Shown: positions 49,398-62,416 of the stretch, piece by piece
How the letters are laid out: each line of letters begins with the position of its first letter
Position numbering within the stretch: position 1 is the first letter of the stretch
From: Fidelibacterota bacterium
GTDB lineage: Bacteria > Fidelibacterota > Marinisomatia > Marinisomatales > SCKK01
Reading direction: 5' to 3'
DNA: 64,000 bases
Assembly (NCBI GenBank): GCA_004124475.1
Contig: SCKK01000012.1
Location: 1 to 64,000, forward strand
Notes under the pieces: generated by a model
Seen by the model: only the letters and a program-made list of their open reading frames with translations
Database searches by the model: none
Told to the model about the DNA's origin: nothing
Position numbers and translations under genes: made by a program

Positions 49398-49726
49398 TAA
49401 AGATAGAATATGAGTTTCACCTGAAAAACAACTTTGAGCATGGAACAGGGAGCATTGTCCCATCCCATAGGGATCCCTTTGGGAGAGGGACTCCTGCGGA
49501 GGAGTAGTGGAGTGATGGAGTGATGGAAAAATCTTGTTTACCTTAATAGTGCAAATAATTAATACTCCCTCTACGCCGTTAACGGCGTTATATGTAAAAA
49601 ATAATCTTAACGATAAGGGCATAAATGCTCTGATTTCTTTAAATCACTATATTCCTGGGCTAATGAAAACTGACTTATTAGATGAACACTAAATCATTAG
49701 TAATTCAATTTCCTTCTGAGAATTAG
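49398..49726. other. Gap after dnaG with palindromes
   Basis: No gene. CCCATAGGGATCCCTTTGGG (from 49464) duplicates the word at 15129. ACGCCGTTAACGGCGT (49573-49588) is a perfect 16-bp palindrome not seen elsewhere in the window. Confidence 0.6.
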
Positions 49727-56714: not shown

Positions 56715-56781
56715 AAACAGAATTTTATTTTACTGTATCAACTGCCCCGATTAAATCGAGGTCAGGTAGGGAATTTCTCCA

Positions 56782-56797
56782 TCCCGACGCGTCGGGA
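56782..56797. repeat. CCCGA/TCGGG palindrome
   Basis: TCCCGACGCGTCGGGA, perfect 16-bp palindrome. Further members lie at 57291-57306 (CCCCGACGAGTCGGGG) and 57322-57342 (TCCCGACAT, 3-bp loop, ATGTCGGGA), flanking the DUF971 gene. Confidence 0.8.
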
Positions 56798-56878
56798 CAA
56801 AGGTCAAAATTGACTCTCCATGGGAAGCCTTAGCCTTTTTAATTCCCTCAGACATGTCGGGGGACGTGGCTGTGTTTT

Positions 56879-57193: not shown

Positions 57194-57416
57194 TCAATCC
57201 CCCTTCTTGTTTCACGAATATTATTCTTTTAAATTTGTCCATAAATTTACGGCACTACAAGCATGAAATATAAACAGGTTCGTAGCTTCCCCCCGACGAG
57301 TCGGGGTCGGGATTCAGAGCGTCCCGACATTTCATGTCGGGAAGGTCACAGGGATTCACGCCAAGGCACTTAGCCCTTGAGCAAACTCTGAAGCGCCCCG
57401 TAATGAAGAGGAAATC

Positions 57417-58015: not shown

Positions 58016-58720
58016 ATGGCAAAATTATTTCAACTTGTAAAACTACAGGAAATTGACAATCAACTGTTAGAACTGGAGCAGTTGAAAGGGGATCTTCCCC
58101 TACAAGTAAGAAAACTTACATCAAGAACTGATCAACTAGATAAATCCATTACTATAGCAGAAGCCAGATTAAAAGAAATTGCTGTGAGTATTCAACGTCT
58201 TCAAACCCTTGAACTTGAACGAAAAACAAAAACAGACAAATTACAGGAACAACTCTACCTCGTGAAAACAAATAGAGAGTATGACGCCCTCATGGCAGAA
58301 ATTGACCATTTGAAGTCAGAAATTGATGAAGAAGAATTACAAGAGTTGGAATTGTTAGAAGAAAAAGAACGCCTGGAAGAGCAGTTAAAATTAGAAAAAC
58401 TCCAGTTTATAGAATTTTCTAATGAGCTTAACAAACAGGAAAAAAAGCTTAAAAAGACCATTGCGGGAACTGAAAAAGAGTTTGAGGAATTAACGGAAAT
58501 AAGAGAGACAATTGTTCCTGGAATTAATGCTAGGGATCTGGCCGTATACGATAGAATTCGTAAAGCTCGTGATGGTGTTGCCGTGGTTCCAATTCAGAAT
58601 GGGGCTTGTAGTGGATGTTTCGCTCATTTAACCTCCAAAACCATTATGGAAGTACGAAGCGGCCAAAGATTGTTGACTTGTTCTGTCTGCCGACGTTTTT
58701 TATATTGGCTCGAGAATTAA
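58016..58720 (+). CDS. C4-type zinc ribbon protein with coiled coil (DUF164/zf-RING_7)
   Basis: The 234-residue protein is a long coiled coil (about 5-180) followed by a zinc ribbon with CSGCF...LLTCSVCRRFLYW. Homologues are thought to act in nucleic-acid transactions or secretion, unproven. It lies just upstream of rnpB. Confidence 0.9.
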   Translation: MAKLFQLVKLQEIDNQLLELEQLKGDLPLQVRKLTSRTDQLDKSITIAEARLKEIAVSIQRLQTLELERKTKTDKLQEQLYLVKTNREYDALMAEIDHLKSEIDEEELQELELLEEKERLEEQLKLEKLQFIEFSNELNKQEKKLKKTIAGTEKEFEELTEIRETIVPGINARDLAVYDRIRKARDGVAVVPIQNGACSGCFAHLTSKTIMEVRSGQRLLTCSVCRRFLYWLEN

Positions 58721-58938
58721 CCTGAATAATTTGTTTCATCTGAAAATAGCTTTGAACATGCCTGCCCCGTAGTCCCGACATAGTCGGGAGAGCGTATCGG
58801 GGGAGCACGGAACGTGAAGAATTGTCCCAGAGGGACTCCTGCGGAGGAGTGATACCTGCCTCACTCCGTGGGTGGCTGGCAGATAGGGAGGAGTCCCGAA
58901 GCTTCGTGATGAATGTTTCATTTTGTTTTTTGACAATC

Positions 58939-59361
58939 AGAGTTGATCGGGTGGTTGCCCCGACACTTCTATGTCGGGGAGGAAAGTCCGAACACCGCAG
59001 GGCAGGATGCCTCTTAACGGGAGGGGTTCGTCAGCCGACGGATACGGAAAGTGCAACAGAGAGTAGACATCCCTATCCCGAAGATTCGGGACGGGGTTAA
59101 GGTGAAACGGTGGTGCAAGAGACCACCAGTTCCCGATGAAAATCGGGAGGCTCGGTAAACCCCATCCGGTGCAAGATCAAGCAGCCCCGATTATTCCGCT
59201 ACCAGCGGAGATGTAGCCCGCATCAATGTCCCCCTCCCGACCCCGACTTGTCGGGGGGATCGGGAGGACGAGAGGGGCGGGTAGATCGCATGAACTCGAC
59301 TGTGAGGTCGAGTCCAGATGAATGACCACACCAGACAGAATTCGGCTTATAGATCAACTCT
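58939..59361 (+). ncRNA. rnpB: RNase P RNA (type A)
   Basis: Catalytic RNA that trims tRNA 5' ends. P1 pairs AGAGTTGATC (58939-58948) with GATCAACTCT (59352-59361). Conserved blocks follow in order: GAGGAAAGTCCGAACACC (CR-I), GCAGGATGC, AGTGCAACAGAGAG, GTGAAACGGTGGTGCAAGAG, GGTAAACCCCATC, and at the end AGATGAATGACCA with ACAGAATTCGGCTTA (CR-V). About 423 nt, slightly long, because four helices are enlarged by CCCGA..TCGGG palindromes (58958-58979, 59076-59091, 59131-59148, 59231-59267). Confidence 0.95.
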
Positions 59362-59373
59362 GATTTTTTATAT

Positions 59374-59412
59374 AAAGATTCCATCCGTTAGCTAACAGAT
59401 GGAATCTTTTAT
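59374..59412 (+). terminator. Terminator of rnpB
   Basis: AAAGATTCCATC and GATGGAATCTTT form a 12-bp stem closed by GTTAGCTAAC, followed by a short T-run. Confidence 0.85.
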
Positions 59413-59573
59413 ATTCCTATATAATGACGGGAATAATAAATTTAGTACAAAATAAAAAAGACCCTTTTCAAGTGAGATCATTGTGTAATTTCAAATAAGC
59501 AACATCGCAAATTTTAAACACTAATCCATAATAACCGGGAAAAACCATATTATCCAAATCTTTTACTAATTCC

Positions 59574-61286
59574 GTGATTATCTGGCATACTAGAGAACCT
59601 GACCCGATTCTTGTTTTAAAACTTCAAAAGGAGTTTCACGCACCTGAAATTATTGCACGGGTTCTTGCAAATCGGAACATTAGGTCCCTTGAGGAATCCC
59701 GTCCATTTTTTTCCCCCGATCTTAGTCAACTGCACGATCCCTTTTTAATGCTCAACATGGAGAAAGCTGCCGAAAGAGTCGCAAAACAAATACATAAAAA
59801 GGGCAAGATATTCATTTTTGGCGATTACGATGTGGATGGGACATCAGGAGCATCAGTGCTTTATCTTACATTAAAAGGTCTTGGTGCGGATGTTAAAGCT
59901 TATATCCCAGATCGAGAAAAGGAAGGGTATGGTCTATCCGAACATGGTATTGACGTTGCCGTCGATTTTGGCGCAGATCTTCTAATCACCTGCGATTGTG
60001 GAATTAATGCCTTCCAACCAATCGAATATGCCAATTTCAAAAAAGTGGATGTCATTATCACTGACCATCACACACCTGACCCGATACTTCCAAATGCCTA
60101 TGCTGTTCTGAACCCCAATCAAAAGGACTGCACCTATCCATTCAAAGGATTATGTGGCGCAGGCGTGGCATTTAAACTTGCGTTTGCCGTAGAACAGATT
60201 ACGGAACACCAAGATATAAATGCTTTCCAGCATCTTGATCTTGTTACGCTGGGAACGGCTGCTGATCTTGTACCGATACTAGATGAAAATCGAGTAATTG
60301 TAAGTCATGGGCTTAAACTTTTGGAAAATCCGGATAAACCAGGATTAAGAGCATTGTTAGATGTTTCAGGGCTGTCAGATAAAACATTAACCGTCTGGAA
60401 TCTCGTATTTAGCCTAGCACCTCGGATCAATGCTGCCGGGAGGATGGGCGATGCAAACCGAGCAGTAAAACTCTTCATCGAAGACGATTTCTTTGAATGT
60501 GTTCGACTGGCAAAAGTAATTGATAAAGAAAATTCCATCCGAAAAACAATTCAGGAAACGATTGTTGAAGAAGCCCTCTTTAAAGTCAATGCTGAAGTCG
60601 ACCTTGATAAGGATAGAGCTATTGTACTCTGGGATAACACCTGGCACCCTGGAGTAATAGGAATTGTTGCTTCGAGAATCAAAGAAGAGTTTCATCGACC
60701 GGTGATTATTATTAGTACGGATAGTGATCCGGGAAAAGGATCAGCCAGAAGTATTCATAATTTTGACCTTTATTTAAAGCTCTCAAAATGTGCGGATAAT
60801 CTGGAAAGATTTGGTGGTCATCCCATGGCAGCAGGGTTAACAATTTTAGAAAAAAATCTAAAAAGCTTTCGCCGGGCATTTATAAACATTGCAAATGAAT
60901 CTTTATCTGATGATGATTTGATTAAGACACTTGACGTTGAAGGTGAAATGTCATTAAATATTATTGATAAACGATTCATGAGATTTTTACATGAACTGGC
61001 TCCTTACGGTCCTGGAAATATGAGACCAGTATTTGTAACAAAGGGAATTCAGTTATCAGGAACACCTCGTTTGGTCGGTAACGGAGATCATCTTAAATTC
61101 ACGGCAAAACAAAACGGTAAATCGATTGATGCTATCGGTTTCAATATGGCAAATCATTATGAGCATCTCATCACAGGGAATCCTATTGACATTGCCTATG
61201 TAATAGAAGAAAACGAATGGCGGGGAGTTAAATCAATCCAGTTGAATATTCGCGATATTAAACCAATGAAAGTAAACACACTATGA
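59574..61286 (+). CDS. recJ: Single-strand-specific DNA exonuclease RecJ
   Basis: 5'-3' exonuclease for recombination and mismatch repair. The 570-residue protein has DHH-family motifs GDYDVDGTSG, DCGI, TDHHTPDP and LGTAADLVP, the DHHA1 signature GGHPMAAGL, and a C-terminal OB-like domain. GTG start; the upstream ribosome-binding site is weak. Overlaps fabH by 4 bp. Confidence 0.95.
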   Translation: MIIWHTREPDPILVLKLQKEFHAPEIIARVLANRNIRSLEESRPFFSPDLSQLHDPFLMLNMEKAAERVAKQIHKKGKIFIFGDYDVDGTSGASVLYLTLKGLGADVKAYIPDREKEGYGLSEHGIDVAVDFGADLLITCDCGINAFQPIEYANFKKVDVIITDHHTPDPILPNAYAVLNPNQKDCTYPFKGLCGAGVAFKLAFAVEQITEHQDINAFQHLDLVTLGTAADLVPILDENRVIVSHGLKLLENPDKPGLRALLDVSGLSDKTLTVWNLVFSLAPRINAAGRMGDANRAVKLFIEDDFFECVRLAKVIDKENSIRKTIQETIVEEALFKVNAEVDLDKDRAIVLWDNTWHPGVIGIVASRIKEEFHRPVIIISTDSDPGKGSARSIHNFDLYLKLSKCADNLERFGGHPMAAGLTILEKNLKSFRRAFINIANESLSDDDLIKTLDVEGEMSLNIIDKRFMRFLHELAPYGPGNMRPVFVTKGIQLSGTPRLVGNGDHLKFTAKQNGKSIDAIGFNMANHYEHLITGNPIDIAYVIEENEWRGVKSIQLNIRDIKPMKVNTL

Positions 61287-62381: not shown

Positions 62382-62416
62382 CCCCGACTTGTCGGGGGGG
62401 GGGGTTGGGGGGACGT
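62382..62416. repeat. CCCGA/TCGGG palindrome followed by a G-rich run
   Basis: CCCCGACTTGTCGGGG runs into an 11-G tract and a second run of six G. The same core (CCCCGACTTGTCGGGG) occurs inside rnpB at 59240. Confidence 0.7.

Follow-up and report, generated by a model that had tools for sequence, protein, structure and literature searches.

Dispersed palindromic repeats and the peripheral hairpins of RNase P RNA in a Fidelibacterota bacterium

In the bacterium studied here, short palindromes that are dispersed over the genome appear to have entered peripheral hairpins of the RNase P RNA gene rnpB and then to have changed in place by ectopic copying and template switching. We give this reading a probability of about three in four. 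The window, i. e. the whole stretch of 64,000 nucleotides that was analysed, belongs to a genome of 3.15 Mb in 77 contigs (G000; Fidelibacterota, Candidatus Neomarinimicrobiota). A covariance model search identified positions 58939-59365 of the forward strand as rnpB for a type A RNase P RNA (RF00010, 253.8 bits at a cut-off of 100, with the model covered completely from position 1 to 367). This single RF00010 match makes rnpB a one-copy gene in G000, and it is flanked by a zinc-ribbon protein gene on one side and by recJ on the other. The genus mate G001, with a RecJ that is 94% identical, was used for comparison and is called the sister below. Genome-wide counts were obtained by pattern search, and finer analyses made use of a 464-kb sample of stretches of G000. 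The hairpins of interest in rnpB are as follows:

58958..58979, + strand: P3 hairpin CCCCGACACTTCTATGTCGGGG; outer CCCC/GGGG usual in RNase P, tip different in the sister
59027..59043, + strand: P9 hairpin TTCGTCAGCCGACGGAT; recurs exactly over 17 nt at L152:11985, with related sites in the 464-kb sample
59076..59091, + strand: P12 hairpin TCCCGAAGATTCGGGA; one base off the commonest dispersed palindrome, CCCGAAGTTTCGGG
59131..59148, + strand: P14 hairpin TCCCGATGAAAATCGGGA; GAAA loop (GNRA-type), identical in the sister
59210..59224, + strand: P17 stem-loop GATGTAGCCCGCATC, placed by an alignment of relatives and by folding
59231..59267, + strand: accessory (P17-side) hairpin, 3' of P17, inside P16 and before the 3' strand of P16, placed in the same way

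The loop of P17 presumably holds the 3' strand of P6, the assignment of the two helices being made after known type A structures.

Repeat copies among the rnpB hairpins

All 35 nt of positions 59233-59267 recur unchanged in intergenic DNA of a different contig (G000:C15:53987-54021). A BLAST search of the own genome with positions 59200-59290 returned 27 matches, one of them the query itself; the matches centre on the P17-side hairpin, and the best of the 26 non-self matches has an E value of 6e-12. The repeated unit, family B, is nested and asymmetric, with a part CCCGAC-CCCGACTTGTCGGGG-GGA that is common to copies of both orientations, and palindromy alone can thus not account for the 35-nt match. 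Judged by its sequence, 59233-59267 is certainly a copy of this dispersed nested palindrome.

P12 and P9 are probably repeat copies as well. The sister's P12 is exactly CCCGAAGTTTCGGG and has a 20-nt match in the intergenic DNA of the sample, and the window's P9 belongs with a second dispersed palindrome family, TCCGTCAG..GACGGA. P12 is reportedly also the position of the STRR repeats of cyanobacterial RNase P RNA. The matches of the window's own P9 and P12 are 17 nt long and say little if taken alone, since chance gives a match of 15 nt even for a part of rnpB that is not palindromic. Moreover, some CCCGA stems at these two places may be old and vertically inherited, since such stems are common to several families: TCCCGA..TCGGGA-type P9 stems are present in the sister and in members of the families f3, f4 and f7, and many families have P12 stems of the CCCGA type. 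For P3 and P14, there was no match above chance length outside rnpB, and P3, P12 and P14 had no BLAST match to the own genome among the matches listed. P14 is probably an ordinary RNase P stem. P3 is not distinguishable from an ordinary RNase P stem, and its CCCC/GGGG base is one that the Rfam consensus has for type A RNAs in general.

An earlier note on this DNA, made from the sequence alone, had pointed to four palindromes in rnpB as built from the words that litter the intergenic regions. All four are where it placed them and correspond to P3, P12, P14 and the P17-side hairpin; P9 had escaped it. Its idea that a palindromic element invaded, or was tolerated in, variable stems holds for the P17-side hairpin (35 nt copied exactly, with about 26 relatives) and is likely for P12, it is not supported for P14 and it stays undecided for P3; only one of the four helices matches other sites beyond chance. 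The conservation of stems in relatives, which the note had named as an argument against invasion, applies in part, namely to P9 and P12. The core CCCCGACTTGTCGGGG that it had seen both in rnpB and at 62382 is indeed present exactly at 59241 and 62382, and if up to three mismatches are allowed, the window contains eight matches compared with 0.26 expected from shuffles.

Palindrome families across the genome

The abundance of these words outside rnpB, without which the earlier note would have had to be given up, is evident from the pattern search: CCCGAN{2,12}TCGGG occurs 285 times in G000, as compared to eight times for the reversed control word, and CCCGACTTGTCGGG is present 25 times in the genome versus once for its reversed word. 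In the 464-kb sample, 63 of 70 CCCGA palindromes are intergenic and seven lie in predicted coding DNA, with intergenic DNA making up 18% of the sample (binomial p 7e-36, the rnpB sites left out). An unbiased scan of the sample for 6-bp inverted-repeat arms found the CCCGA words to be the commonest by a wide margin, followed among the GC-rich arms by the CCTGCC, TCCGCC and ATCCGT/CCGTCA types. The excess of single arms over the Markov expectation (67 and 75) is about as large as the number of palindromes (70), indicating that the palindrome is the enriched unit. Four palindromes in 427 nt, as in rnpB, correspond to Poisson p values of 9e-8 at the genome density and 5e-5 at the intergenic density, values that are overstated since rnpB is rich in stems. 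The word GAGCTTGTCGAAG was considered as a third dispersed repeat and rejected, with zero to two copies per genome in the order; a word of its type is present in P12 of G041 and G057 (L045, L066), and a mutated form in G055 (L062). Several relatives have TCCGCC..GGCGGA as a dispersed palindrome, and some of their rnpB genes contain it as well, in small numbers.

Four intergenic features of the window show how the palindromes are arranged outside rnpB:

56763..56825, + strand: larger repeat E3 around CCCGACGCGTCGGG; 89% identity over 63 nt to L150:11761-11840
57291..57311, no strand assigned: intergenic relative of family B; centre GA here, flipped to TC in the sister
58760..58803, + strand: larger repeat E1 upstream of rnpB with a CCCGA palindrome in its centre; copies in L151, L161 and L173
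62382..62397, + strand: core of family B, CCCCGACTTGTCGGGG, in intergenic DNA; found by sequence match and BLAST

Palindromes are contained in the larger repeats E1, E2 and E3. Other copies of E1 carry different palindromes at the same centre, among them family B at L140:14620, and these exchanged centres indicate that palindromes nest in palindromes, both in rnpB and elsewhere. Just upstream of rnpB, the palindrome GTCCCGAAGCTTCGGGAT contains 71 nt (positions 58829-58899) that are inserted as compared to the sister; GTCCC stands at each junction, and parts of the insertion recur at window position 49484 and in L150 and L145.

The sister species and other relatives

Outside five hairpins, rnpB of the window and of the sister are identical in 288 of 291 columns without any gap, which shows that the conserved core has been retained despite the inserted hairpins. 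The differences are concentrated in P3, P9 and the P17-side hairpin, with 24 substitutions and 17 gap columns in total, and all three are still predicted to fold and pair in both species. The P9 hairpin is a member of different families in the two species, TCCGTC in the window and TCCCGA in the sister (TCCCGACTATTTCGGGA). As TCCCGA forms of P9, with differing tips, are also present in G003, G004 and G034 from three other families, the window's form is probably the derived one by this informal rooting. In the sister, the P17-side hairpin contains the family B repeat in reverse orientation and, like that of the window, has an exact counterpart of 35 nt in the DNA of G000; its 5' arm equals the window's 3' arm once the latter is reverse-complemented, and the window's inner 19 nt are found inverted. 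The intergenic palindromes are changeable, too: among 33 sites outside rnpB that were compared with the sister, nine were unchanged, eight modified, two occupied by another palindrome, one centre-flipped and 13 absent. A second centre flip is apparent at L144:13004. A clean empty site together with a target duplication could not be proven; a candidate 8-nt repeat at L152:9964 could also be a deletion footprint.

Across the order (46 genomes), an rnpB with more CCCGA palindromes tends to belong to a genome with a higher load of them (rho 0.61), and the same is true for family means (rho 0.63, p 0.012). Part of this correlation is due to the G+C content of rnpB (partial r 0.45 if this is taken into account), and within families it is not significant (permutation p 0.15). 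On average, there are 3.4 CCCGA pairs per rnpB in five high-load genomes versus 0.23 in 22 low-load genomes. The P9 palindrome families differ also between G004 and G016 of one genus, and this is another swap. The rnpB gene of G008 (L058, 571 nt) contains an insertion of about 140 nt beside P17 with the ends GTGAAATAA..TTATTTCAC, which looks like a MITE-type element; G045 of the same genus is devoid of this insertion and has a short TTATTTCAC only. For G005 and G010, both nearly complete and with many CCCGA palindromes, no RF00010 match was obtained under stricter filters, which could reflect an assembly gap or a divergent gene.

The look at other structured RNAs that the earlier note had proposed gave a positive result in relatives. 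The tmRNA of G034 (L212) contains a 32-nt double palindrome, CCCGAAGTACCGGGATCCCGATTCGTCGGGA, that is absent from five other tmRNAs aligned. In 23S rRNA, CCCGA palindromes were found in G003 and G010 (four each), G002 and G034 (two each) and G035 (one); the CCCGA..TCGGG hairpins (L217, L224, L223, L219/L220, L227) are located in variable helices, and at some of these places the hairpins of the aligned relatives are shorter and lack the CCCGA word. In G000 itself, neither the tmRNA nor the 23S rRNA, of which the 3' part is assembled, contains a CCCGA palindrome. The 23S rRNA of G004 (L225, contig C47) was excluded because of a poor alignment (1834 bits); it is probably from another lineage, a possible contamination.

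Competing explanations, proposed mechanism and known systems

One may argue that nothing has invaded rnpB, and that its GC-rich hairpins are ordinary RNase P stems retained by common descent that resemble intergenic DNA by coincidence. The presence of the P3 base in the Rfam consensus, the identity of P14 and its GNRA-type loop in the sister, and the recurrence of CCCGA-type P12 and P9 stems across several families are in agreement with this idea, and for P14 and the P3 base it may hold. For 59233-59267 it is refuted by the 35-nt match to intergenic DNA and the 26 family members, and neither the difference between low-load and high-load relatives in CCCGA pairs per rnpB nor the exchange of P9 between sisters for another dispersed family is expected from it; as a general explanation, we regard it as quite improbable. 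Template switching during replication might also have made and perfected the stems in place, with no need for copying between loci. The reverse-complementary arm and the inverted inner 19 nt of the P17-side hairpin, the centre flips at 57292 and apparently at L144:13004, and the precedents in rRNA hairpins, which include loop inversions (PMC8794818), all fit such a process. Yet it cannot yield 35 nt of identity between rnpB and unlinked intergenic sites, and it cannot turn both arms of P9 into another dispersed word in a single step. As the only process at work, template switching is therefore unlikely.

The palindromes might be REP/REPIN-like elements that are mobilised by a genome-encoded Y1 (RAYT) transposase. 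Y1_Tnp matches are indeed present (seven in G000, five in G001 and six in G003), and the Y1 gene at C63:19333, one of the seven in G000, has CCCGA palindromes on either side. Most Y1 genes, however, have other hairpins, or no hairpins at all, at their flanks, no Y1_Tnp match was obtained in G034 with its 153 palindromes, and GTAG/GGAG stands beside 8 of 66 palindromes as compared to 11% at random positions, i. e. at background level. An inspection of the Y1_Tnp genes and their flanks revealed no transposase tied to the CCCGA repeats, and we see only a small chance for this explanation. The Y1_Tnp genes in L130, L120 and L136 are flanked by repeated hairpins of their own, such as CCATCAACCGTGTTGATGG, and probably represent REP/RAYT systems that have nothing to do with the CCCGA words; two Y1 genes (L123, L120) contain CCCGACTCGTCGGG within their coding region, at corresponding positions. 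Even less probable in our judgement is that the palindromes, those in rnpB included, are binding sites or RNA signals such as terminators or processing sites, each selected at its own site. The strong intergenic preference would suit such signals, but the palindromes lie between divergent, convergent and co-directional genes broadly in line with intergenic length, the 13 of 33 sites that are missing in the sister speak against selection site by site, and the rnpB copies lie within the RNA.

We therefore favour the entry of dispersed palindromes into rnpB, followed by changes in place. Families of short palindromic repeats (16-35 nt) are scattered over the genome, chiefly in intergenic regions, and copies have entered the outer, length-variable hairpins of rnpB, certainly so for the P17/P16 hairpin and probably for P12 and P9. 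Since each unit folds by itself, its arrival would add or replace a hairpin and leave the catalytic core undisturbed, which may be the reason why selection tolerates it. Between the sisters, units are flipped, extended or exchanged for another family while pairing is kept, and two routes may contribute to these ongoing changes: (i) Ectopic copying from other copies, by insertion or gene conversion, seems to be needed for the 35-nt identity and for the P9 family swap. (ii) Template switching within a hairpin would produce the flips and the perfected arms. The reverse-complementary arm in the sister is a signature of template switching (PMC8794818), and the distant identities call for copying between loci. 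A new role for RNase P RNA is not implied. It is tempting to speculate that palindromes are interchangeable stem cassettes throughout the phylum, with families entering hairpin tips and junctions in intergenic repeats, rnpB, tmRNA and 23S rRNA and being swapped by hairpin-targeted copying; this wider idea is tentative, and we consider it possible rather than probable.

Point substitutions with compensation are the usual explanation for variable helices in ribozymes and rRNAs. In the present case, genomic repeats appear to supply whole stems, and sister species are in different states while the core is nearly unchanged. The case thus offers a natural test set for the origin of RNA expansion segments and for ectopic copying versus template switching, and it illustrates the absorption of repeat DNA by an indispensable RNA. 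It is also a warning not to read the covariation counts of such stems as independent compensatory changes.

Literature searches on palindromes in Marinimicrobia gave nothing directly relevant. The Rickettsia palindromic elements (RPE; Ogata 2002, as described in PMC2229807) are similarly dispersed palindromic DNA that is present in the rnpB (M1 RNA) and tmRNA genes and apparently tolerated there, the tmRNA case here being limited to G034. According to the same account, RPE are single stem-loops of 105-146 bp that are also fused in frame into protein genes, whereas the units here have 16-35 nt, fall into at least two families and are about 90% intergenic by site count (7/70 in predicted coding DNA); unlike the RPE described there, several units share one rnpB and show flips and family swaps between sister species. 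The STRR repeats of cyanobacterial RNase P RNA (Vioque 1997, as cited in PMC2858038) are likewise genome-dispersed repeats in a variable rnpB stem; by that secondary account they are tandem short repeats, and there is no tandem repeat here at 58700-59600. With the template-switch mutations in rRNA (PMC8794818), the P17-side hairpin shares loop inversion and replacement of a whole arm with pairing kept, as seen from two genomes without a reconstructed ancestral state; those events are purely local and leave the identity to distant repeats unaccounted for. REP/REPIN elements with RAYT are short intergenic palindromes in hundreds of copies, too, but the excess of GTAG/GGAG and the consistent linkage to a transposase are missing here. 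Another deep-branching phylum provides a REP-like parallel: Caldithrix abyssi has an 18-nt, mainly intergenic palindrome, AACCGTTgaAACGGTT, with 38 exact copies (PMC5317091), which differs in sequence and for which the accessible part of that paper reports no copies in RNA genes. Precedents for repeats in RNase P RNA thus exist in Rickettsia and cyanobacteria, and the case presented here differs from them in the size of the units, in the number of families and stems, and in the visible swapping.
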